Of a DNA stretch of 62,455 bases, positions 36,268-46,736 are shown in pieces. Source of the stretch: Pseudomonadota bacterium. GTDB lineage: Bacteria; Desulfobacterota; Binatia; UBA9968. The notes under the pieces are model-generated. The model did not search any database. It was given only the letters and a program-made list of their open reading frames with translations, and had not been told where the DNA came from. A program made the translations under genes and the position numbers. Each line of letters begins with the position of its first letter. The stretch's first letter is position 1. Location: NCBI GenBank assembly GCA_021324155.1, contig JAJPJQ010000050.1, positions 1 to 62,455 on the forward strand, given 5' to 3'.

Positions 36268-36654
36268 TTAACGTTTGGCTTGAATGAGCTCGATCTTGTA
36301 GCCGTTCGGGTCTTCGACGAAGGCGATCTCGGTCGTGCCGTGCTTCATCGGGCCGGGTTCGCGCACGGTCTTGCCGCCCTTGCCGCGGAGCGCCTCGCAT
36401 GTCGCGTAGATATCGTCGACGCCGACGGCGATATGGCCGAAGCCGTCGCCGACACTGTATTGATGCGTATCCCAATTATACGTGAGCTCGACGACCGCGC
36501 TGGAAGCTTCGTCGCCGTAGCCGACAAAGGCGAGCGTGAAGCGCCCCGACGGATACTCTTTTTTCCGCAGCAGGCGCATGCCGAGCAGGTCGCAGTAAAA
36601 GCGGATCGATTCGTCCAAATCATTGACGCGGATCATCGTGTGCAGGATTTTCAT
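36268..36654 (-). CDS. gloA: Lactoylglutathione lyase (glyoxalase I)
   Basis: 128 residues from ATG 36654 behind GGAGGGG; the open frame upstream to 36861 is antisense to the next gene and is not coding. The four metal ligands are at H5, E56, H74 and E122, the same positions as in the E. coli enzyme, within ILHTMIRV, VELTYNWD, GHIAVGV and KIELI. It converts the methylglyoxal-glutathione hemithioacetal to S-lactoylglutathione in the cytoplasm. By length and loops it looks like the Ni/Co-dependent short form. Confidence 0.94.
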   Translation of the reverse strand: MKILHTMIRVNDLDESIRFYCDLLGMRLLRKKEYPSGRFTLAFVGYGDEASSAVVELTYNWDTHQYSVGDGFGHIAVGVDDIYATCEALRGKGGKTVREPGPMKHGTTEIAFVEDPNGYKIELIQAKR

Positions 36655-36754
36655 CGGCCCCTCCGTCCGATTATTCTTATACCGCCCGCCGACACCGCAC
36701 AACGGCGTGCTTGATTGACAAGCGGACGGCGCGAAGATAGAAGCCGGTCTCGAC

Positions 36755-37720
36755 ATGGCGAAAAAAACCGCTTCGTGGATTAATTGGATCAAAGCGGGCG
36801 TGGGCCTCGGGCTGCTCGCGATCCTTTTCTGGAGTCTCGACTGGCGGCAGTTCGTCCACACGCTTTCGACGGCGAACTTCGGCTTCGTCGCCGCCGCGCT
36901 TCTTGCCTACACAGTCGGGAAAGTTCTGACGGCTATTCGCTGGGCGATGCTCGCGCGGCCGCCGGGATTCAAAAATCCGCTGAAAGAGTTCGTCGCGTTC
37001 TATTATATCGGGATGTTTTTCAACCTCTTCGCGCCGAGCACGCTCGGCGGCGACGCGGGCAAGGTTTACTATCTCACGCGCGAGAGGGGCGATGCCGGCG
37101 GCGGCGCCGAGACGGCGACACGCGCTGTGATCTCCATCCTCGCCGATCGCGCCATCGGCATGACGGTGCTGTTCTGGATCGCCGCCGTTGCGCTCCTCGC
37201 GTTTCCCGGCTATGCGGAGCTTTTTCCGCAGGCGGTGCGCTATGCGACTTATATCAGCGCGGTCCTGCCGATCGCCGCCTATGCGGCGTTTCCGCTCGTG
37301 GGCCGCCGGCTCGCAAAGATTCGCCACTCGCTGGCGCAAAAGCTCCATGACATGGGAAACGCGTACTGGCGGCGGCCCGACGTTCTCGCCGGAGCCGTGC
37401 TGCTGTCGCTGGCGTTCCACTTGATTCAAGTGGCGATCCAGGTTCTCATCGCCGACGCGCTCGCTTTCGAGCTGCCGTGGAGCTACGCGCTGGTTTTTTT
37501 TCCGCTGGTCGATGTCGTGGCGATGCTACCGGTTAGTATCAGCGGCATCGGGATACGCGAGGGCGGCTATTTGTTTTTTCTCGGCCGCATCGGCGTCGCG
37601 CCGGAGCGGGCGATCGCCAGCAGCATCGTGTGGCTCGCGATCGTCGTGGCGAGCGGCCTTGTCGGCGGTCTCGTGTTCGTGCTTTACCGCGAGCGCGCTC
37701 AGTCGATTTCCCCGTCTTGA
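36755..37720 (+). CDS. Lysylphosphatidylglycerol synthase-like (UPF0104) integral membrane protein
   Basis: 321 residues with about eight hydrophobic segments. The flippase-like LPG_synthase_TM family is shown by TVGKVLTAIRWAMLAR near 50-65, FFNLFAPSTLGGDAGKVYYL near 88-107, and LPVSISGIGIREGGY near 245-260. The aminoacyl-transferase domain of MprF is absent. Such stand-alone proteins are often found with glycan clusters and may flip lipid-linked sugars. It converges by 22 bp on the GT39 operon described next, which makes that role attractive but unproven. Confidence 0.85.
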   Translation: MAKKTASWINWIKAGVGLGLLAILFWSLDWRQFVHTLSTANFGFVAAALLAYTVGKVLTAIRWAMLARPPGFKNPLKEFVAFYYIGMFFNLFAPSTLGGDAGKVYYLTRERGDAGGGAETATRAVISILADRAIGMTVLFWIAAVALLAFPGYAELFPQAVRYATYISAVLPIAAYAAFPLVGRRLAKIRHSLAQKLHDMGNAYWRRPDVLAGAVLLSLAFHLIQVAIQVLIADALAFELPWSYALVFFPLVDVVAMLPVSISGIGIREGGYLFFLGRIGVAPERAIASSIVWLAIVVASGLVGGLVFVLYRERAQSISPS

Positions 37721-39222
37721 TCGATCGGCGGCGGCAGCTGCGCCTTCTCGATTTCACAAGCCTGAGGATCGCGCGTCGCACCTTTCATAACGATCGTCTT
37801 TCCATCCGATGAGGTTACGACGACTTTCATTTCGCCGTTCGCTTCACCGGCCCGCGCAAGGTAGTAGTCGTCCGGTTTGCCGCACGACAGCGGCATGCGG
37901 ATGATATTGCGATCGAGTCGGTAGGCGACAACCTGCAGTGTCGGATTCAATAGCTCTGGCGTAGCGTAGAACCGGCTGCTTCCTGGAACGGCAGCTTCGA
38001 CTTTGCCCACGAAATCAAGCATGCCGCCAAACGCCACTTCGCGCCTCCATACGGAAGGATTTGGAAGGATCAACACGAGATCGACGAGCGCGACTAGCAG
38101 GGCAAGGCTCTGCAGGCGGGCTAACTTCAGCGCGGCGAAACGAGCCTTGAGCGTCTCGCCGTCGGCGAGCGGCGCGAGCGCGCGCGCCGCGATCAGCGCG
38201 ACCGCCGGATAGGCAGGGAGCAGATAGACGGCGCGCTTGATCGTCGAAATAAAGACGATGGCAAAGATCACTATCCACCAAGCATGGAGAAAGCGTCCGG
38301 TCGAGTCCTCGCGCCCGCCGCGGAAGCGATGGACGAGGGCCGCGATCAGCGCGAGGTTCCAAGGAAACAATCGCGTCGCGAGCCAGCCGAAAACCGCGAA
38401 TTTGCTGTGGCGCGTCGAAAAGCCGTGCGTGCCGAGAATGTGCTCGAAGTTCTCGCGAAAGATCTGCACGTCGAGGAAGCGCTTGCCGCCGATATGATAC
38501 GCGCCGGCATACCAGCCGATGTCGATGGCGAGCGTCAGCGTGACCCACGGCCACGACCAGAGTTGCCAAAGTTCCGCCAGCCGCTTATCGGCGGCGAGGA
38601 AAGCGATGATGCCGAGCGCGGGGAAAGCGGCGCCTGCTGGACCCTTGGCGAGCACGGCGAGCGCCGCGCCGATATAGCATATGGCGCGCTGCCATTCGCG
38701 CCTGTCGCGCTGCCAGAAGAAAAAGCCCGTGAGGGATGCCGTGACGCACGCCGCGAACACCATATCGACGCGCGCTTCGGTTCCGGACACCCAGAATTCG
38801 TACATGCCGAGCAGCGCGCCGACGGCCAGCCATGCGGTGCGCCGCCCGCCGATCGCTTTGCCCAGCATGAAAGTCATCGTGGCCACGGCGCCCGCCGCCA
38901 GCGCTGATGGGAGGCGCACCGTCCAGTCGGAAAGACCGAGCGGGAGCGCGAGGATGGCCGCGATCCAGTGGAACAGCGGCGGCTTCGAAGGGATGCCCTC
39001 GTTCGGGTCCGGCAGAATCCATTCGTGATCTTGAACGATGTCCTGCACGACGAGTCCCTCGCGCGCCTCGCCGTGATTCCAGATCGGCGGGAGCAAATAC
39101 GTCCAGGCGGCGAGCGCGATAAAAATCGCCGCGAGAAAAAGGATGTCCCAGCGCGTTCCGCGCTCTGACGTGGCGACGGGCTTATCGTAAGTGAGTGTAG
39201 ATACAGTGTTCAGCGCGTTCAT
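37699..39222 (-). CDS. GT39 family (ArnT-like) membrane glycosyltransferase, copy A
   Basis: 507 residues with about twelve hydrophobic segments. The first periplasmic loop holds the catalytic-region acidic residues in HGEAREGLVV, followed by IPSKPPLFHWIAA. A second conserved acidic motif is EARVDMVF near 150. It would move a sugar from polyprenyl phosphate to lipid A, a protein or another lipid in the periplasm. It is most similar to copy C (40945-42708), sharing EGLVV and IPSKPPxFHW. It is the last gene of the six-gene operon, 13 bp after copy B. Confidence 0.88.
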   Translation of the reverse strand: MNALNTVSTLTYDKPVATSERGTRWDILFLAAIFIALAAWTYLLPPIWNHGEAREGLVVQDIVQDHEWILPDPNEGIPSKPPLFHWIAAILALPLGLSDWTVRLPSALAAGAVATMTFMLGKAIGGRRTAWLAVGALLGMYEFWVSGTEARVDMVFAACVTASLTGFFFWQRDRREWQRAICYIGAALAVLAKGPAGAAFPALGIIAFLAADKRLAELWQLWSWPWVTLTLAIDIGWYAGAYHIGGKRFLDVQIFRENFEHILGTHGFSTRHSKFAVFGWLATRLFPWNLALIAALVHRFRGGREDSTGRFLHAWWIVIFAIVFISTIKRAVYLLPAYPAVALIAARALAPLADGETLKARFAALKLARLQSLALLVALVDLVLILPNPSVWRREVAFGGMLDFVGKVEAAVPGSSRFYATPELLNPTLQVVAYRLDRNIIRMPLSCGKPDDYYLARAGEANGEMKVVVTSSDGKTIVMKGATRDPQACEIEKAQLPPPIDQDGEID

Positions 39223-39235
39223 GAAAACTTTACAT

Positions 39236-40948
39236 CTAGCGGTTCGTTACCAGCGCGACGCCATCGGCGCGGAGCAAAACCTTCGCGCCGTGCAGCTCGA
39301 AGAGGCGTTTTTCTTTAACGAATACCAGAAGCCTTCTCTGCCCCCATTGTCGGTCAAATTCTTCGTAAGTCAACAGCGCCGGGTCGTAGCCTGGGGCGGG
39401 AGAGGGCCATTCTTTCGATAAATAAAAGCTGCCGAGGATTTCGCCGTCGCCGCGATGCGCGACGACAGCCATGGGCCGATGAAGGGCGAGGTAAAAAGGG
39501 AGGCTCGGAAGGTATGTGTCGTAAATCACGACGGGCACCGTCGCGTCCGCCGAGCGCACGACCGCCGCGGAATCATGCGCCAGCTCTTTGTCGGAGCGGT
39601 CGAGAGAAATCGGCGCAATCACACGGTGCCCGATAAAAAACAGCGCCGCGAAAGCGACGCAGCAAAGCGGCATCAACCGCTCGAGCGGCGCCGTCAGCGT
39701 CGTCCATGCGGCGGCGAAGAAGAGGAGCGCGGCGACGACTCCGACCGACGCGATTTCGGCGCGCGGCAGCTGAGTAACGAATTCCCGACCGGCGGCTGGG
39801 ACGAGGGTCGGCGCGATCAGCCCGGCAAAGAAGTAGAGACAGGCCAGGCCGAGCAGCAGCCAGGCGGCAGCGAGAAGGCGGAGATCGATCCGCTGAAGGC
39901 CATAAGCCAACGTTATTCCGGCGAGTGCGGCGAGCGCCGGATAAATCGGCAGGAGGTATTCGGACATCTTCGAGCTGGACAAGCTGAAAAACGCGAACGG
40001 CACGACGGCCCATAACAGCGTAAACAGCGCGAAGTCATCACGCATCTGCCACAGCCTCGCCGCGATGCGCGGCAGGATGAGCGTCCAAGGAAAGAAGCCG
40101 ACGGCGACGACGCCGAAAAAGTAATACCACGGCTTTCCGCGGTTGAAGTGCGGCGTGAGAAAGCGGACGAAATGCTCCTGGCCGAGAAAGTAGGCGAGGT
40201 ATCCGGGGCGGCGCATCTCCGCGGCGGCGTACCAGGGCGTGACTATGAGCAGAAAGATCAACACGCCCCAGCCAAGCTCCATCTCTTTGAGCGCCGACCA
40301 TTTCCGCCGCGCGGTGATATATGCGACCACGATCATCCCGGGAAAGATGAAACCGATCGGCCCTTTAACGAGCGTCGCGCCCGCCGCGGCGGCATACATT
40401 AGGAAGTGATAGCGCCGTTTAACATTCTGCAGTTCGGCTATACTCGCGAGATAAAATGCCATCAGCGCTGTCGTGATGAAGAATGCCAGGACCATATCGA
40501 CGATCACGATGCGCGCGAAGATATTAAACTGCACTGCGGTCACGAGCACGAGCGCGCTCCAGAGCGCCGCCCACGCGCCGGCTATGCGCCGGACGAAGAA
40601 ATAGGTGATGACGAGAATACCGAGCGCGGCCAATGCGGATGGCAGCCGCGCCGCCGTCTCGGAGACGCCGAAGAGCTTAAAGCTCGCCGCCGTTGCGGCG
40701 TAGAAGAACATCGGCTTTTCGATCCGCGGGAGAAAATTATAGTAGGGCGTGATCCAGTCGCCCGTCTCCAGCACTTCGCGGGCGATTTCGGCGTTGCGCC
40801 CTTCATCCGGATTGAAGAGGGCGGCGCCGCCGAGATCGTGGAACAGGACAAAAACCGCAGACAGCGCGAGAATCGCAGCTGCTATGCGGCTATCGTCGAG
40901 CAACGCGGCTAGAGAGCGCGGGCGGTCGGCCGCCGCTGCCGGTCTCAC
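39236..40948 (-). CDS. GT39 family (ArnT-like) membrane glycosyltransferase, copy B
   Basis: 570 residues from GTG 40948, with GGAG seven bases upstream and overlapping the stop of copy C by GTGA. The open frame reaching back to 41377 lies inside copy C in another frame and is not coding. The first loop is the canonical ArnT form NPDEGRNAEIAREVLETGDW, followed by RIEKPMFFY; VDMVLAF supplies the second acidic motif. Of the three copies it is closest to true ArnT (4-amino-arabinose transferase). About twelve membrane segments. Confidence 0.88.
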   Translation of the reverse strand: MRPAAAADRPRSLAALLDDSRIAAAILALSAVFVLFHDLGGAALFNPDEGRNAEIAREVLETGDWITPYYNFLPRIEKPMFFYAATAASFKLFGVSETAARLPSALAALGILVITYFFVRRIAGAWAALWSALVLVTAVQFNIFARIVIVDMVLAFFITTALMAFYLASIAELQNVKRRYHFLMYAAAAGATLVKGPIGFIFPGMIVVAYITARRKWSALKEMELGWGVLIFLLIVTPWYAAAEMRRPGYLAYFLGQEHFVRFLTPHFNRGKPWYYFFGVVAVGFFPWTLILPRIAARLWQMRDDFALFTLLWAVVPFAFFSLSSSKMSEYLLPIYPALAALAGITLAYGLQRIDLRLLAAAWLLLGLACLYFFAGLIAPTLVPAAGREFVTQLPRAEIASVGVVAALLFFAAAWTTLTAPLERLMPLCCVAFAALFFIGHRVIAPISLDRSDKELAHDSAAVVRSADATVPVVIYDTYLPSLPFYLALHRPMAVVAHRGDGEILGSFYLSKEWPSPAPGYDPALLTYEEFDRQWGQRRLLVFVKEKRLFELHGAKVLLRADGVALVTNR

Positions 40949-42708
40949 GGCTCGTCTCCTTCGTCCGGCGCATCGACGGTATCCGGCAGCCGGATGTCGG
41001 TGCCGGGAGCGACGGCAACGACCAAGAGCCGCTCGCTTCCGTCCCAGCCGGTCGTCTCGCTCGTATCGATCTCCGTCAGGCCGCGTTTGCCTTTGAGCAT
41101 CAGCCACTCGTTCTCGCGGATGAGAATATAGTAGGGCGGCTTTGCGGGCCGCTGGAGCGGCAGAAACGACGGCAGATAGGCGCGGGCGTAGAACTGCGCG
41201 GCTTTGTTGGCGCCGCTGTAAAAAACGATTGGCATGCCGGCCGGAGTCTCGGCGCGGACGCGCGCCATGAACGGCCGAAAGCTGTAGTTGCCCGCGAGCG
41301 CCGGATGGAAGGTGCTTTGGATTGCGCTGAGCGAGATCATGAGCACGATAGCAAGACTCAATGCGACGGCGTTCCAAGCTCCGCGCCGTGCTTCGCCGAT
41401 GATGAAGACGCCTCCCAGCAGCGACACCGCGGCGCAGAAAAACAGCGTCGTGCGAAAATCGTTCAAAGCTCCGGCCATGACCGTAAGGCTCTCGCGGCTA
41501 TTTGGCCACACGAAACGCTGCGCCGCTGCGACCACGTCGAACCCGACTGCCTGGGCCGCGAGCGTTACGCCGGCGAGACCGAAGACGGTCGCGATCGCGT
41601 ATACGGCCGTTTTGGCCCATCCGGTTTCCGCCGACACGCCGAGCGACAAGTCGCTCCACCATGCAGCGAACAGCAGCGCTACCGCCGGGTAAAGCGGAAG
41701 GATGTACACCGATCGCTTACCCAGCGCGAGCGACAAAACGACGAAGACGGCGGCGAACCAGACGAGCGGGTAAAGCAGCTCCTTTTCCGCCAGACGGCGG
41801 CGCTGCCGGAACAAATAAATCGCAAGGGCCGGAAAGAACAGACTCCATGGCGCCATGCCCGCGAAAAGCGCCGGCACATAATAAAAGATATTGTGATTAT
41901 GGCCGGCGGCGCCGAGCGGCGTGCCGACGATCTCGTGGACGACCTGGCGGAGAAAAAACCTTTCGCCGCCTTGGAGCCATGCGAGAGAGTACCAGCTCCC
42001 GGCGACTACCAAGCCGAATGGAATGGAAATCCAGAGATAGAGCCGCTTAACGAAAGCGAGGTCGCGCATGAACCCGAGAAACAGCAGGGCGGCGATTCCG
42101 GGAAGCGCGGCGCCGACCGGCCCCTTGGCAAGGATTGCGAGGCCGGCAAAGAGTGCGAGCAGCAGGCTGCGCGCAATTCCACCGCCGGCTTTGTGCAAGA
42201 AATAAAAATACAGGAACGTGCAGAGCATGAAAAAAGTGAGCGTCATATCGACGCGAGCGCTGACGGCGGCGCGCCACCACTCGGGACTCGTCGCGAGGAC
42301 GACGGCGGCGACAAGACCCGCGGTCGCGCCCCACAGACGAGCGGCGGCAAGATAGACGGCGAGAACACCGAGCGAGGCGAGCAGCGCGGAAGGGAAGCGC
42401 ACGGTGAATTCGTTGAATGTTCCCGACACGAGCGAGGTGACAGCCGCGATCCAATGGAACATCGGCGGCTTGGACGGGATGTCGACGCCCGCGCGCAGCG
42501 GCAGGATCCAGCTGCCGTTGTGCCAGATCTCCCAGACGACGAGGCCTTCACGCGGCTCTCCCTTTTCATAGAACGGCGAGGCCCAGAGTGCCCAGATAAA
42601 GAGAATGAAGCAGAAGGCACAGACGAGAACCGCGCCCGCGGCCACCGACGGTACCGCCTCTACCTTACCATTTCGAGTTTTATGCTGCCTTGCCGAATCA
42701 GCGCTCAT
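40945..42708 (-). CDS. GT39 family (ArnT-like) membrane glycosyltransferase, copy C
   Basis: 587 residues with about twelve hydrophobic segments and a polar N-terminus of 20 residues. The first loop has KGEPREGLVV and DIPSKPPMFHWIAAV; the second acidic motif is SARVDMTLTF. It is the sister of copy A. It ends by overlapping copy B (GTGA) and follows the Gfo/Idh dehydrogenase gene by 31 bp in the same operon. Donor and acceptor are unknown; a polyprenyl-phosphate sugar donor is the family rule. Confidence 0.88.
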   Translation of the reverse strand: MSADSARQHKTRNGKVEAVPSVAAGAVLVCAFCFILFIWALWASPFYEKGEPREGLVVWEIWHNGSWILPLRAGVDIPSKPPMFHWIAAVTSLVSGTFNEFTVRFPSALLASLGVLAVYLAAARLWGATAGLVAAVVLATSPEWWRAAVSARVDMTLTFFMLCTFLYFYFLHKAGGGIARSLLLALFAGLAILAKGPVGAALPGIAALLFLGFMRDLAFVKRLYLWISIPFGLVVAGSWYSLAWLQGGERFFLRQVVHEIVGTPLGAAGHNHNIFYYVPALFAGMAPWSLFFPALAIYLFRQRRRLAEKELLYPLVWFAAVFVVLSLALGKRSVYILPLYPAVALLFAAWWSDLSLGVSAETGWAKTAVYAIATVFGLAGVTLAAQAVGFDVVAAAQRFVWPNSRESLTVMAGALNDFRTTLFFCAAVSLLGGVFIIGEARRGAWNAVALSLAIVLMISLSAIQSTFHPALAGNYSFRPFMARVRAETPAGMPIVFYSGANKAAQFYARAYLPSFLPLQRPAKPPYYILIRENEWLMLKGKRGLTEIDTSETTGWDGSERLLVVAVAPGTDIRLPDTVDAPDEGDEP

Positions 42709-42739
42709 GGCGAGTGCGGCCGGCGCGCGCCAGCCGAGG

Positions 42740-43759
42740 TCAGGATTCGATGGCGATTTTCTTTCCGCCGGCTCGGAGCGAGCGCTCGCCCGCTTCCAGC
42801 ACCGCGAGGACTTTCAGCGAGAACTCGCCGTCCGAAAGCGGCGCGCGCCGCTCGCGGATGCTGCCCAGAAAATCCGCCACGGCGGAAGCCAGCGGCTCCT
42901 CGGCGGCGATGCCTTCGAGTTTGCGTTCCGTCAAAACTTTCGACGGAATTGTATTCGCGTCCGGCGCTGCGCCGCCCGCGCCAGCGCCCGTCGCGTACTC
43001 GTAGAGCGTTGCCGCGCGCTTGTCGAATTTGCCCTCGTAGACGAGCATCTTTTTGCTGCCGACGACCGTGAGCTTCGCCGTGTTCTCGGGAAAAAGCCAG
43101 TTGTGATAGATGAACGCGGAGGCGCCGTCGGACATCTCGACCGTCGCCATGTTGAGGTCTTCGACGTCGGGTTGGAGATAACGATAGCCTTGGAGCGTGA
43201 CGCTCGCCGGACGGCCCTTCAAAACGAACAAGAGGATCGAGACGTCGTGCGGCGCAGAGTTCCACCAGACGTTGGAGTCGCGCTTGATGCGGCCGAGGTT
43301 CAGCCGCTGGAGAAATACATGGTAGACGTCGCCCAGCTCGCCGCCAGCGGCGAGCTCCTGCGTCACGCGGATCGCGCGGTCGTAGAGAAACGTGTGGTCG
43401 ACGAAGAGCACGGCGCGCTGCGCCTGCGCCGCGGCGACGAGAGCTTTTCCCTCATCGTAGCGGAGCGCTAGCGGCTTCTCGATCCAGATGTGCTTGCCGG
43501 CGTCGAGCGCCTTTTTGCCGAGCGAGAAATGCGTTGCCGGCGGCGTCACAAGCACGACGGCGTCGATTTTAGCGTCTTTAAGCACGGCGTCGTACGACCC
43601 AGTCGTAGAAATATCGGGAAAGGCTTTATGGCATTCCGCACGCAGGCCGGCATCGAGATCGCATATCACTGCGACCGAGCAATCCTTGGCCGCACGAAAT
43701 TTCGGCAACAGCTTGCGCCCCCAGTAGCCGGCGCCCACGAGCGCGACGTTGATCGTCAT
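42740..43759 (-). CDS. Gfo/Idh/MocA family NAD(P)-dependent dehydrogenase
   Basis: 339 residues. The N-terminal Rossmann fold has VALVGAGYWGRKLLPKF, VVLVTPPATH and the family EKPLAL motif near 98. The C-terminal half is the usual dimerisation/substrate domain (PHDVSILLF contains the conserved His). In sugar clusters, members such as WbpB and GnnA oxidise a UDP-hexose at C3 to a keto sugar that a DegT aminotransferase then aminates; such an aminotransferase is two genes upstream here. No signal peptide. It lies 3 bp after the GT2 gene. Confidence 0.9.
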   Translation of the reverse strand: MTINVALVGAGYWGRKLLPKFRAAKDCSVAVICDLDAGLRAECHKAFPDISTTGSYDAVLKDAKIDAVVLVTPPATHFSLGKKALDAGKHIWIEKPLALRYDEGKALVAAAQAQRAVLFVDHTFLYDRAIRVTQELAAGGELGDVYHVFLQRLNLGRIKRDSNVWWNSAPHDVSILLFVLKGRPASVTLQGYRYLQPDVEDLNMATVEMSDGASAFIYHNWLFPENTAKLTVVGSKKMLVYEGKFDKRAATLYEYATGAGAGGAAPDANTIPSKVLTERKLEGIAAEEPLASAVADFLGSIRERRAPLSDGEFSLKVLAVLEAGERSLRAGGKKIAIES

Positions 43760-43762
43760 TGC

Positions 43763-44650
43763 CTAACGAAACTCCTTAATGCGGAAAGGCGGACGTTCCT
43801 GCGCTTCAACGAAGCGCTCGAGGCTCCGCCCGTTGGCGTAGATCAGACAGGCAATGAGCAATAAGAGGAGCGCCGGAATCGTCCAGCCGAGAATTAAAAA
43901 AAAGGCGCCGACCGTGACCGTCAGCCACTGGAGTCTGAGAAAGGCGCCGATCCAGCGCTCGGCGCCCGCCACGGCGAACGGCAGCACGCAGATATCGCGC
44001 GCGACTTCGAAGACGCGCCCCAGCCCGTAGTGCGAAGTGCCCGCCTTACGCTCGCGGTCGACGATCTCCACTTCGGAAAATTCGTTTGCTTTCACGCCGA
44101 ACACCACTGGCGAGAAGCGATTTAAAAATCCCTTGGGCACATATCGGCCGGCGATTACCTCGCGCCGGTACGCCTTCAGGCCACAGCCGCAGTCGTGTAC
44201 CGGCACGCCGCTGACCAATCGGATCAGCGCGTTCGCCACGATCGACGGCAGGCGCCGGTCCCAGAAGCTGCCGACCCGTTCCCGCCGCCAGCCTGAGACG
44301 ACGCGGTACCCCTGCGACAAGCGATCGAGCATCGCGGGAATATATGCAGGATCATTCTGATAATCGCCGTCGATCGTCACGATGATTTCGCCGGACGCGC
44401 GCGAAACGCCCGCCAGCAGCGCCCAGTTCTCACCGACATTCGTCTCGAGATCGGCGTAGTGAAAGCGCGGATCCTCATCGGCGATCGCTTTCATGATGGA
44501 GAGTGTGTCGTCGTTGCTCCAATCGTTCACGAAAATGATCTCATAGTCGCCCAGCGGCTCGAGCGCGTCGCGAATGGCCTCGTAAAGCGCCCGCACGTTT
44601 CCTTCTTCGTTGTGCATGGGCGCGACGACCGACAGCCGGAGTTTCTGCAC
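43763..44650 (-). CDS. GT2 polyprenyl-phosphate glycosyltransferase with two C-terminal membrane helices (ArnC/GtrB type)
   Basis: 295 residues. The GT-A domain has VVAPMHNEEGNVRALYEAI, then FVNDWSNDDT where the family usually has VDDGSxDxT, and TIDGDYQNDP as the metal/acceptor motif. Two hydrophobic segments (about 228-250 and 254-275) end the protein, as in ArnC/GtrB. It would load a nucleotide sugar onto undecaprenyl phosphate for export and use by the three GT39 enzymes. It starts 8 bp after the aminotransferase. Confidence 0.9.
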   Translation of the reverse strand: MQKLRLSVVAPMHNEEGNVRALYEAIRDALEPLGDYEIIFVNDWSNDDTLSIMKAIADEDPRFHYADLETNVGENWALLAGVSRASGEIIVTIDGDYQNDPAYIPAMLDRLSQGYRVVSGWRRERVGSFWDRRLPSIVANALIRLVSGVPVHDCGCGLKAYRREVIAGRYVPKGFLNRFSPVVFGVKANEFSEVEIVDRERKAGTSHYGLGRVFEVARDICVLPFAVAGAERWIGAFLRLQWLTVTVGAFFLILGWTIPALLLLLIACLIYANGRSLERFVEAQERPPFRIKEFR

Positions 44651-44658
44651 GGAGAAGG

Positions 44659-45768
44659 TCAGTCGCGCGAGAAATATTCCCGCACCGCCGCGATGATGTA
44701 GTCGACTTCATCGTCGCGGAGCTCGGCGAAGACCGGCAGCGCGAGGTTCTCGCGCGCGTACCGCTCGGCCTCGGGAAGCGAATATTTCGGCAGCTTTTTG
44801 GCGATCCACGACTCATGGTGGTGCAGGCAAAGCGGATAATAGATGCCGTTGCCGATGCCTTTTGCGTCGAGAAATTTCTTCAGCGGCTCGCGGTCGGGCG
44901 TCTCGATTGCGTATTGATGGTAGACACTCGTACGATCGGAAAAGACCGGCGGCGTGCGCAGCGGCAGATTGCGGAAAGCGTCGTCGTAGCGCGCGGCGAT
45001 CTCGCCGCGACGGGCGTTGTCGCGGTCGAGCGTCGGAAGCTTGAGCCGCAGCATGCCGGCCTGAAGCTCGTCGAGTCGGCTGTTCCAGCCGTAGATCTTG
45101 TGGTTGTACTTTTCCGCCTGTCCGTGGACGCGGAGCAGCCGCACGGATTCCGCGAGCTTGTCGTCGTTCGTGAGCACGACTCCGCCGTCGCCGTAGCAGG
45201 CGAGGTTTTTCACCGGTCCCAGGCTCATCGGCGTGATGCGTCCTAGACCGGCCGCGCGCTCGCCCTTGTACACCGCGCCCTGCGCCTGCGACGCATCCTC
45301 GATGACGGGGATATTGTTTTCGCCGGCGAGACGGACGAGCGAGTCCATGTCGCACGGCAGCCCGAGCATATGAACGGCGAGGATCGCGCGCGTGCGGGGG
45401 CTGATGGCCGCTCTGACCGAGCCGAGATCGGGACCGTAATCGCCGGCGGCCTTGTCGACCAGCACCGGCTTGGCGCCCACGCTGAAGATCGGCTCGATCA
45501 CCGGCGCGGGCGCGTGTGCCGCGAGGATCACCTCGTCGTCCTCGCCGATCCCGAGCGCGCGCAACGAGAGAAAGATCGCGTCGGTGCCGGAGGCGACGCC
45601 GATCGCGTGCTGCACGCCGCAAAACGCGCCGAACTCGCGCTCGAAACCGGCGAGCTGTGGCCCGTTCAGGAGCCGCATCGATGTCAGCGTTTCGTCCCAG
45701 CGGGCGCGGAGGTCTGGCTCGATCTGGCGGTATTTCCGTGTGAGATCGAGTAAAGGAATATTCATCAA
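44659..45768 (-). CDS. DegT/DnrJ/EryC1/StrS family sugar aminotransferase
   Basis: 369 residues, first gene of the six-gene operon (45768 to 37699). PLP-lysine region is SLGPVKNLACYGDGG, with the conserved Asp in VIEDASQAQGA and the substrate-side NSRLDELQAGML. The cofactor-facing segment LAAHAPAPVIEPI departs from the usual AFTFVAT pattern. It transfers an amino group to a keto sugar nucleotide made, in this model, by the Gfo/Idh enzyme. GnnB, WbpE, FdtB and ArnB belong to the same family; which one is closest needs a tree. Confidence 0.9.
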   Translation of the reverse strand: MMNIPLLDLTRKYRQIEPDLRARWDETLTSMRLLNGPQLAGFEREFGAFCGVQHAIGVASGTDAIFLSLRALGIGEDDEVILAAHAPAPVIEPIFSVGAKPVLVDKAAGDYGPDLGSVRAAISPRTRAILAVHMLGLPCDMDSLVRLAGENNIPVIEDASQAQGAVYKGERAAGLGRITPMSLGPVKNLACYGDGGVVLTNDDKLAESVRLLRVHGQAEKYNHKIYGWNSRLDELQAGMLRLKLPTLDRDNARRGEIAARYDDAFRNLPLRTPPVFSDRTSVYHQYAIETPDREPLKKFLDAKGIGNGIYYPLCLHHHESWIAKKLPKYSLPEAERYARENLALPVFAELRDDEVDYIIAAVREYFSRD

Positions 45769-45989
45769 ATCGATCGGTCTTTCGTAACGGGATTGCCGGC
45801 GGAGCTCAAAGCTGAAGCAATAGCCTTTACTACCTCAAAATCGCGAAAATGACAAATGTTCGCGGCAAAAAATGCCGCGGGTCGCATCGCGGCCTCTGTC
45901 GCGAAGTTGTCCTTGCGCGATGCGTTTGAAGCCGTAGCCGTTGCAATGCTATTGGATTTGCGGGAAGACACGGGAGGAGGAAACCCCTT

Positions 45990-46736
45990 ATGAAATTGGA
46001 AAATAAGGTCGCGATTGTTACCGGCGCGGGACGCAATATCGGTGAAGAGGTCGCCGTCTGGCTCGCGCGCGAGGGCGCTCGCGTGGCGGTGATCGATCTC
46101 GATCGCGGCCGCGGCGAGAAGGTGGCGGCCGCGATTAACGCACAGCACAAGGACCACGCGATCGCCGTCGTGTGCGATGTCTCATCCTCGGCGGACGTGC
46201 AGAAGATGGTACGCACGGTGTCCGACAAATGGGGCGGCATCGACATTCTCGTCAACAACGCCGCATGGACCGACCGCAAGAACGTCCTCGACCTAACCGA
46301 GGAGGAGTGGGACAAGGTTATGGACGTCTCGCTGAAGAGCGTCTTTCTCTGCGTCAAGTACGCGGCGCGCGCGATGATCGATGGCAAGCGGAAAGGGCGC
46401 ATCGTCAATCTCGCTTCCACGTCGGGCTATGTCGGACGGCCGGACGCGACCGCTTATACGGCTGCCAAGGCAGGCGTCCTCAACCTCACGCGCTCGCTCG
46501 CGGCGCAGCTCGCCACGCACGGCATCCGCGTCAACTCCGTGACGCCGAACCGCATCGGCTCGCCCGTGGGCGAAGACGTGGTGCCGGAAAACCGCTACGT
46601 CAAGAATCTCGTGGGGCGGAGGGGGGTGCCCGCCGACATCGCGGCCGCGGTATTGTTTCTCTGCACCGAGGAGTCGGATTTTATCACCGCTGCCGATGTG
46701 CTTGTCGACGGCGGCGCACTGGCGACGATGCCGTAA
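45990..46736 (+). CDS. SDR family oxidoreductase
   Basis: 248 residues. The cofactor motif is TGAGRNIGEEVA near 11-22, then NNAA, an active-site Ser in LASTSGYVG, and YTAAK as a normal YxxxK. SPVGEDVVPENRY replaces the usual PGxxxT. An excellent GGAGGAGG ribosome site lies upstream with a spacing of about 10 bases. The substrate is unknown. It converges on a binding-protein gene, with an inverted repeat in the gap. Confidence 0.92.
   Translation: MKLENKVAIVTGAGRNIGEEVAVWLAREGARVAVIDLDRGRGEKVAAAINAQHKDHAIAVVCDVSSSADVQKMVRTVSDKWGGIDILVNNAAWTDRKNVLDLTEEEWDKVMDVSLKSVFLCVKYAARAMIDGKRKGRIVNLASTSGYVGRPDATAYTAAKAGVLNLTRSLAAQLATHGIRVNSVTPNRIGSPVGEDVVPENRYVKNLVGRRGVPADIAAAVLFLCTEESDFITAADVLVDGGALATMP

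Follow-up and report, generated by a model that had tools for sequence, protein, structure and literature searches.

A conserved Binatia operon that probably encodes an extracytoplasmic amino-sugar capping system

The 62,455-nucleotide stretch analysed here (the window; contig JAJPJQ010000050.1 of assembly GCA_021324155.1, which is contig C43 of a 4.8 Mb draft genome of the class Binatia) carries a minus-strand operon, running from 45768 to 37699, that probably constitutes a self-contained extracytoplasmic amino-sugar capping system. The operon encodes a DegT/StrS aminotransferase, a family 2 glycosyltransferase (GT2), a Gfo/Idh/MocA dehydrogenase and then three GT-C glycosyltransferases, GT39a, GT39b and GT39c (the GT39 label follows Pfam PMT naming; CAZy places ArnT-type enzymes in GT83). 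A plus-strand gene for a PF03706 flippase-like membrane protein converges on it, with a 22-nucleotide (nt) tail-to-tail overlap with the operon end. Spacing is operon-like, with gaps of 8, 3 and 31 nt followed by a 4-nt GTGA overlap and a gap of 13 nt. An earlier note, made from the letters alone, had described this set, and all seven genes proved to score above their own Pfam cut-offs.

The mechanism that we infer starts with the Gfo/Idh enzyme, which would oxidise C3 of a nucleotide hexose, probably linked to uridine diphosphate (UDP), after which DegT would add an amino group at the 3-keto carbon. On the cytoplasmic side of the membrane, GT2 would load the resulting 3-amino sugar, most likely with a free amine, onto polyprenyl phosphate. 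Passage of the lipid-linked sugar across the membrane may then be helped by the PF03706 protein, and in the periplasm up to three ArnT-like GT-C enzymes would pass it on to various positions or acceptors. The acceptor would most likely be lipid A or the core of lipopolysaccharide (LPS), which we regard as likely but unproven. Neither an N-acyltransferase nor a formyltransferase, deformylase or deacetylase was found among the operon genes in Pfam and NCBIfam scans, and because a partner acyltransferase is lacking, the amine is probably free and cationic. The earlier note had already put forward a make-load-flip-attach logic, of which the make-load-attach chain is backed by the gene fusions described below, whereas its naming of GnnA and GnnB is not supported; that reading was thus largely right in logic and too specific in naming GnnA/GnnB and lipid A.

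The grouping of these genes is not due to chance, since the GT2-Gfo core recurs at 29 loci (window included; genes sought within 10 kb of the Gfo gene). At these cassette loci, DegT was found at 26, some GT-C at 26, a PF03706-type gene at 15 and GT2 at all 29, the last count being partly built in because loci were chosen in part for a visible GT2. DegT is missing at L081 and L090, where the contig ends, and is genuinely missing at L088; the three loci at which no GT-C was found lie on contigs of 4.0, 5.7 and 8.3 kb. Gene order, whose conservation the earlier note had proposed as a check, is kept across the cassette loci. A hexapeptide acyltransferase query (one query, E 1e-10) found no acyltransferase of the O-antigen type at any of the 29. 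The genome scan also gave 60 loci outside the cassette, of which 47 have DegT, 8 have GT2 (mostly weak matches) and none has GT-C. The cassette Gfo (E up to 1e-95) is present in 23 of 145 genomes of the class, so that the system is patchy within it, and the cassette also occurs outside the class in the same phylum (L081-L084, L089, L138).

The link between making and loading the sugar comes from GT2 (43763..44650, minus strand; PF00535, 106.5 bits; C-terminal membrane helices judged by eye). Its closest solved structure is ArnC 9hwj (107 bits), and the motifs DGD.QNDP and GCGLK are kept in 16 aligned rows. At three of the 29 loci, from three separate assemblies, DegT and GT2 form a single open reading frame (ORF) confirmed with Pfam, namely L063:8034-10109 (minus strand, 691 residues), L086:7949-9985 (plus strand, 678 residues) and L092:2088-4103 (plus strand, 671 residues). 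These are the only DegT-GT2 fusions among the ORFs compared, and long ORFs around the Gfo gene at L066, L087 and L138 gave no GT2 match within the same ORF. The occurrence of this fusion at three loci suggests that the amino sugar is probably the substrate that GT2 loads. The outgroup locus L172:7832-10582, on the other hand, encodes a 916-residue protein that fuses Gfo/Idh, a hexapeptide acyltransferase and DegT and follows O-antigen logic, and Sinorhizobium meliloti pSymB and Pelagibacterium (two plasmid examples) carry acyltransferase, Gfo and DegT genes as separate neighbours. Comparison of the gene content of the three fusion loci with that of L172 and pSymB suggests that the lineages differ after amination, with loading on a lipid carrier in the cassette and acylation in the others. 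The triple fusion apparently holds the whole O-antigen-type amino-sugar branch in one protein.

DegT (44659..45768, minus strand; PF01041, 318 bits) probably starts at ATG 45765, one codon past the TTG 45768 of the first reading, and its Lys187 is invariant in 17 rows. The closest solved structures are 2oga (285 bits; we take it to be DesV, the structure record itself saying transaminase), 7b0d (270 bits), QdtB (247 bits) and WbpE (221-224 bits), with ArnB-type enzymes at 137-161 bits. A 17-row profile gave 444 bits for 7b0d, 399 for 2oga, 385 for QdtB, 320-324 for WbpE and 214-241 for the ArnB type. The leading matches are mostly C3-aminotransferases, and against the NCBIfam ArnB model the protein reaches 186 bits, the cut-off being 631. 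In a quick tree, 27 cassette rows form one clade with a Shimodaira-Hasegawa-like approximate likelihood ratio test (SH-aLRT) support of 100; they group with DegTs near Gfo genes, apart from the genome's own ArnB-like gene (the tree sampled 24 of the 60 non-cassette genome-scan loci and 13 other loci, counted L055 as cassette and left out rows shorter than 280 residues). DegT is therefore predicted to belong to a group of presumed C3-aminotransferases near DesV, QdtB and WbpE and not to that of ArnB.

The Gfo/Idh/MocA protein (42740..43759, minus strand; PF01408, 83.5 bits), a predicted sugar C3-dehydrogenase, has Lys95 of its EKP motif, His171 and Asp172 invariant in 15 rows, and its AlphaFold model has a mean confidence (pLDDT) of 89.6. 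In a tree built regardless of neighbouring genes, all 27 usable cassette rows form one clade (support 100/99), whose nearest kin sit in O-antigen-type clusters; L058 and L080, in which Gfo is broken or partial in the assembly, were left out, and GnnA itself was not included. The protein matches GnnA 7bvj over its full length with 66 bits, other Gfo enzymes scoring alike, and its model aligns with GnnA at Z 35.1 and 25% identity and cannot be told from other Gfo enzymes. The earlier assignment to GnnA/GnnB is not supported, as the cassette Gfo forms a clade of its own with O-antigen-type kin and the genome's GnnA-like Gfo sits elsewhere, in the lpx operon. That Gfo and DegT group with sugar enzymes and not with unrelated non-sugar clades is, however, borne out by structure ranking, profiles and trees.

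All three GT-C proteins match PMT or PMT_2 (48-64 bits for the best Pfam model), and their likeness to ArnT has a different basis in each. For GT39a (40945..42708, minus strand) it is the predicted fold, since the AlphaFold model (pLDDT 88.4) matches ArnT with a Foldseek E of 7e-20, the next family reaching 1e-7, and VIA-align superposes it on ArnT 5f15 with Z 37.8 and a root-mean-square deviation of 3.4 over 502 residues, Pmt4 following at 28.5. For GT39b (39236..40948, minus strand) it is the sequence, the nearest of the three to ArnT (DEGRNA ... EKP), which gives 172 bits to ArnT 5ezm over residues 36-502 and 171 bits to the NCBIfam ArnT model, whose cut-off is 567. The start of GT39b is best placed at GTG 40948, which has AAGGAG upstream, and its Pfam, NCBIfam and PDB scores were computed from 40969, i.e. 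with seven more residues. For GT39c (37699..39222, minus strand; PMT_2, 48 bits) the likeness comes from PMT_2 and from the tree. ArnT carries the motifs RYA and YFEKP in its first periplasmic loop, whose Tyr and Lys are required for activity (PMC5377068). At these sites GT39a and GT39c both read REG and IPSKP and GT39b reads RNA and RIEKP, so that all three have the Lys but lack the Tyr of RYA, and GT39b holds both motifs in part.

A quick tree of GT-C ORFs of at least 330 residues, aligned from 40 loci plus the window stretch, places GT39a and GT39c in an 18-row clade (SH-aLRT 100), named GE.RE after its motif, that lacks RYA and YFEKP. At the position of the first-loop Asp of ArnT, these rows have Gly (15), Met (2) or Gln (1), the next residue being an invariant Glu. 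GT39c, the second GT-C of this clade in the operon, pairs with L076 at 100 and has close kin only there among the 29 loci, and the branch of GT39b holds only the window's family. GT-C proteins beside Arn-type genes at L057, L064, L091, L093 and L094 carry DE.RYA and YFEKP, and those at L082, L084, L089 and L138 carry DEPRYA with DKPP. The description of all three enzymes as ArnT-like thus holds for the fold of GT39a and the partial motifs of GT39b, but GT39a and GT39c belong to a clade without either ArnT motif.

The PF03706 (LPG_synthase_TM) protein (36755..37720, plus strand; 141 bits), a predicted lipid-linked-sugar flippase, scores 54.6 bits against TIGR00374 (cut-off 43.2) and has no solved relative in the PDB at E up to 1. 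Kin of the window protein are present at 10 of the 29 loci, window included. Its proposed link to the operon is reinforced by seven loci at which the gene stands in line with the core genes (L081-L084, L088, L089, L138). At L081-L084, which belong to RBG_16_54-type relatives, behind the core come the PF03706 gene, another GT2 and another PMT_2, among which a gene for a calcineurin-like phosphoesterase is interspersed; the extra GT2 and PMT_2 are possibly a second lipid-linked sugar system.

The genome probably also has the machinery for an LPS acceptor and a second, Arn-type route. A set on contig C12 gives NCBIfam scores of 428 bits for an ArnB-like, 251 for an ArnD-like, 216 for an ArnT-like and 331 for an ArnC-like protein and 379 for a formyltransferase, the last alone exceeding its strict cut-off; an ArnA dehydrogenase was not identified among the six genes scanned there. 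Arn-type modules also adjoin the core at four of the 29 loci (L057, L064, L091, L093) and comprise ArnC, formyltransferase, ArnA dehydrogenase, ArnD and a GT-C with ArnT motifs. At these four loci no aminotransferase other than the cassette DegT was seen. In three of the four genomes (G060, G066 and G085) the best ArnB-like match, at 362-395 bits (cut-off 631), lies elsewhere, which would mean either that ArnB works from another part of the genome or that the modules have components in common. Genes of the ArnD type (E up to 1e-40, all below the NCBIfam cut-off) occur in 11 of 23 cassette genomes and in 72 of 145 genomes of the class, which shows no association either way, and the cassette apparently does not need them.

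On contig C35, lpxD, lpxA, lpxI, a Gfo gene, lpxB and msbA stand in line. This Gfo (L162:8206-9147) is GnnA-like (NF040723, 204 bits, cut-off 450) and forms a very long branch of unsure placement in the Gfo tree; its presence in the lpx operon hints at a diamino-sugar lipid A backbone. A GnnA-like Gfo between lpxI and lpxB is also seen in G003 (L182:8308-9237), and an aminotransferase partner was not identified for the lpx-operon Gfo of either locus. lpxA was found in 22 of the 23 cassette genomes, the miss being an 80% complete bin. Judged by these genes, the organism probably makes LPS and has both the Arn-type route and the new one. Two LpxA homologues score over the cut-off in 18 of the 23 cassette-bearing genomes, and the genome of the window has one. 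The second copies located are L178 (G003:C91:2718-3473), L179 (G066:C3:181461-182213) and L180 (G041:C1:100866-101618), together with the sole copy of G002, L181 (G002:C196:8453-9208); near these four, no other queried lpx genes were found save weak ABC-transporter matches.

Several observations weigh against the capping system as we read it, in addition to the partly constructed GT2 count. At 14 of the 29 loci no PF03706 gene lies nearby, and in the window this gene runs towards the operon from the opposite strand. The first-loop Asp of ArnT is replaced by Gly in GT39a and GT39c; as L071, the ArnT-like protein of this genome, has Val at that site, loss of the Asp is not peculiar to the GE.RE clade and may mean little. 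Fold searches with the Gfo model (Foldseek and VIA-align) do not separate C3-dehydrogenases from other Gfo enzymes, the 50 VIA-align rows listed falling at Z 33-37, and the Gfo C-terminal domain gave no confident match in the PDB (best E 0.08); neither search points to a particular sugar. NtdA, likewise a C3-aminotransferase, scores no better than ArnB against DegT (128 bits, 231 by profile), so that the split between C3 and C4 enzymes is not clean. The Arn-type modules beside the cassette at L057, L064, L091 and L093 hold no ArnB-like gene. Finally, the genes for a PF03706 protein, GT2, Gfo and GT39a directly follow one another at L088, with no DegT within 10 kb. The same bin (G008) carries L088 on C142 and, alone on C63, a DegT of the window family's type (L055). 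We rejected these two as a natural split of the operon; the pairing is unsafe, as the L088 Gfo falls with L092 and outside the family of the window, whereas the L055 DegT falls within that family, and as the bin has 9% contamination. Contamination or transfer may explain the lone DegT.

The same make-load-flip-attach machine might serve an acceptor other than lipid A or LPS core, namely a side branch of O antigen or capsule, as in Gtr-like systems, a hopanoid or other glycolipid, or a protein, which is a possibility that we take seriously yet think doubtful. The HpnL family is named for hopanoid clusters, and five cassette loci have a PF03706 neighbour with a match to an HpnL-like protein, the one scanned (L058) scoring 178 bits against a cut-off of 196; an aldo/keto reductase is found near 7 of the 29. 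Systems of GT2, flippase and GT-C are also known to decorate O antigens, as described in PMC11127046. ArnT is nevertheless the closest predicted fold to GT39a, Arn-type modules adjoin four loci, and the three window neighbours scanned (a glyoxalase, a short-chain dehydrogenase/reductase and a solute-binding protein) are not O-antigen genes.

It is unlikely that the operon joins two unrelated modules, in which Gfo and DegT would serve either O-antigen synthesis or a lipid A backbone of the 2,3-diamino type (the GnnA/GnnB role) and GT2 and GT-C would handle another sugar. Such a division would fit the resemblance of Gfo to GnnA, the arrangement at L088 and the situation outside the cassette, where the Gfo and DegT families sit in O-antigen-type clusters and DegT is found at 47 of the 60 scanned loci and GT-C at none. 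Against it stand the DegT-GT2 fusions, the separate clades formed by the cassette Gfo and DegT, the O-antigen-type acyltransferase query that found nothing at the 29 loci and the GnnA-like Gfo that the lpx operon already has. Still more improbable is that Gfo and DegT act after loading, on a sugar already carried by polyprenyl phosphate. KanD2 and GenD2 act on an assembled glycoside, and the cassette Gfo profile scores them (6jw6, 91 bits; 6nor, 80 bits) much as it does WlbA (84) and GnnA (86), while the DegT-GT2 fusion is compatible with either order; the kin in O-antigen clusters, however, sit with nucleotide-sugar enzymes, and DegT is nearest to such enzymes. That the operon is an Arn operon making 4-amino-4-deoxy-L-arabinose (L-Ara4N) is scarcely credible and is contradicted by its gene content, for although its GT-C fold and GT2 resemble ArnT and ArnC, its DegT falls far below the ArnB cut-off, ArnA and ArnD are absent among the operon genes, a separate Arn-type set lies on C12 and ArnD-like genes are found in just 11 of the 23 cassette genomes.

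Taken as a capping system, the cassette shares parts with several known pathways. With the Arn system it has in common a DegT aminotransferase, a GT2 acting on undecaprenyl phosphate and a GT-C of ArnT fold, but it lacks genes for formylation and deformylation, has Gfo instead of ArnA and a DegT that lies outside the ArnB group, and in GT39a and GT39c has transferases without RYA and YFEKP. In the Bordetella and Francisella systems the amine arises by deacetylation of an N-acetyl sugar, whereas the cassette, with no deacetylase among its operon genes, would install it by a dedicated Gfo and DegT pair. The Bordetella genes lgmA-D place an amino hexose, glucosamine (GlcN), on lipid A phosphates with an ArnT-like enzyme (PMC11895810), and the NaxD system of Francisella places galactosamine on lipid A (PMC4410734). 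With pathways of the WbpB/WbpE(/WbpD) and WlbA type it shares the use of Gfo and DegT for a 3-amino nucleotide sugar, WbpE being among the nearest solved DegTs, but related clusters carry an N-acyltransferase where the cassette has GT2 and GT-C. GnnA/GnnB, which make UDP-GlcNAc3N for the lipid A backbone, share the reaction logic and a Gfo with the GnnA fold; the cassette Gfo, however, is not encoded in the lpx operon, which has a GnnA-like Gfo of its own. Gtr-like three-component glycosylation has a polyprenyl-phosphate GT2 and a GT-C in common with it, by sequence and predicted fold. The likeness in layout to the rhizobial Rgt system, whose transferases include RgtA-C, is that several transferases serve one donor; the donor there is galacturonic acid and amino-sugar genes are absent. 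That system pairs RgtE, a donor-making enzyme, with transferases such as RgtD and RgtF (PMC7663294).

A literature search, for which most subscription papers were beyond reach, found no description of this gene set, and a term look-up in the Binatota genome paper (PMC8262859) returned nothing. Scans of 36500-46200 gave one sigma-70-like promoter (2.3 in shuffled sequences) and 22 terminator-like sites (11.7 in shuffles), many of them within genes.

Cationic lipid A caps decide how bacteria meet antimicrobial peptides, and to our knowledge few routes for capping lipid A with a cationic sugar exist, namely with aminoarabinose, galactosamine and glucosamine. We tentatively put forward the cassette as a possible further, independent class, which would combine de novo synthesis of a 3-amino-3-deoxy hexose, an aminotransferase-coupled GT2 working without formyl or acetyl protection, GE.RE GT-C enzymes with a catalytic Glu for the ArnT Asp, and several transferases per donor. 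If this is true, the system would make it possible to test whether loading of an amino sugar on undecaprenyl phosphate requires the formylation cycle of the Arn pathway, and the DegT-GT2 fusion offers a single protein in which to ask that question. It would also mean that amino-sugar capping evolved more than once, in this case from another sugar pathway, among environmental bacteria that are uncultured, and at some loci right beside Arn-type genes.

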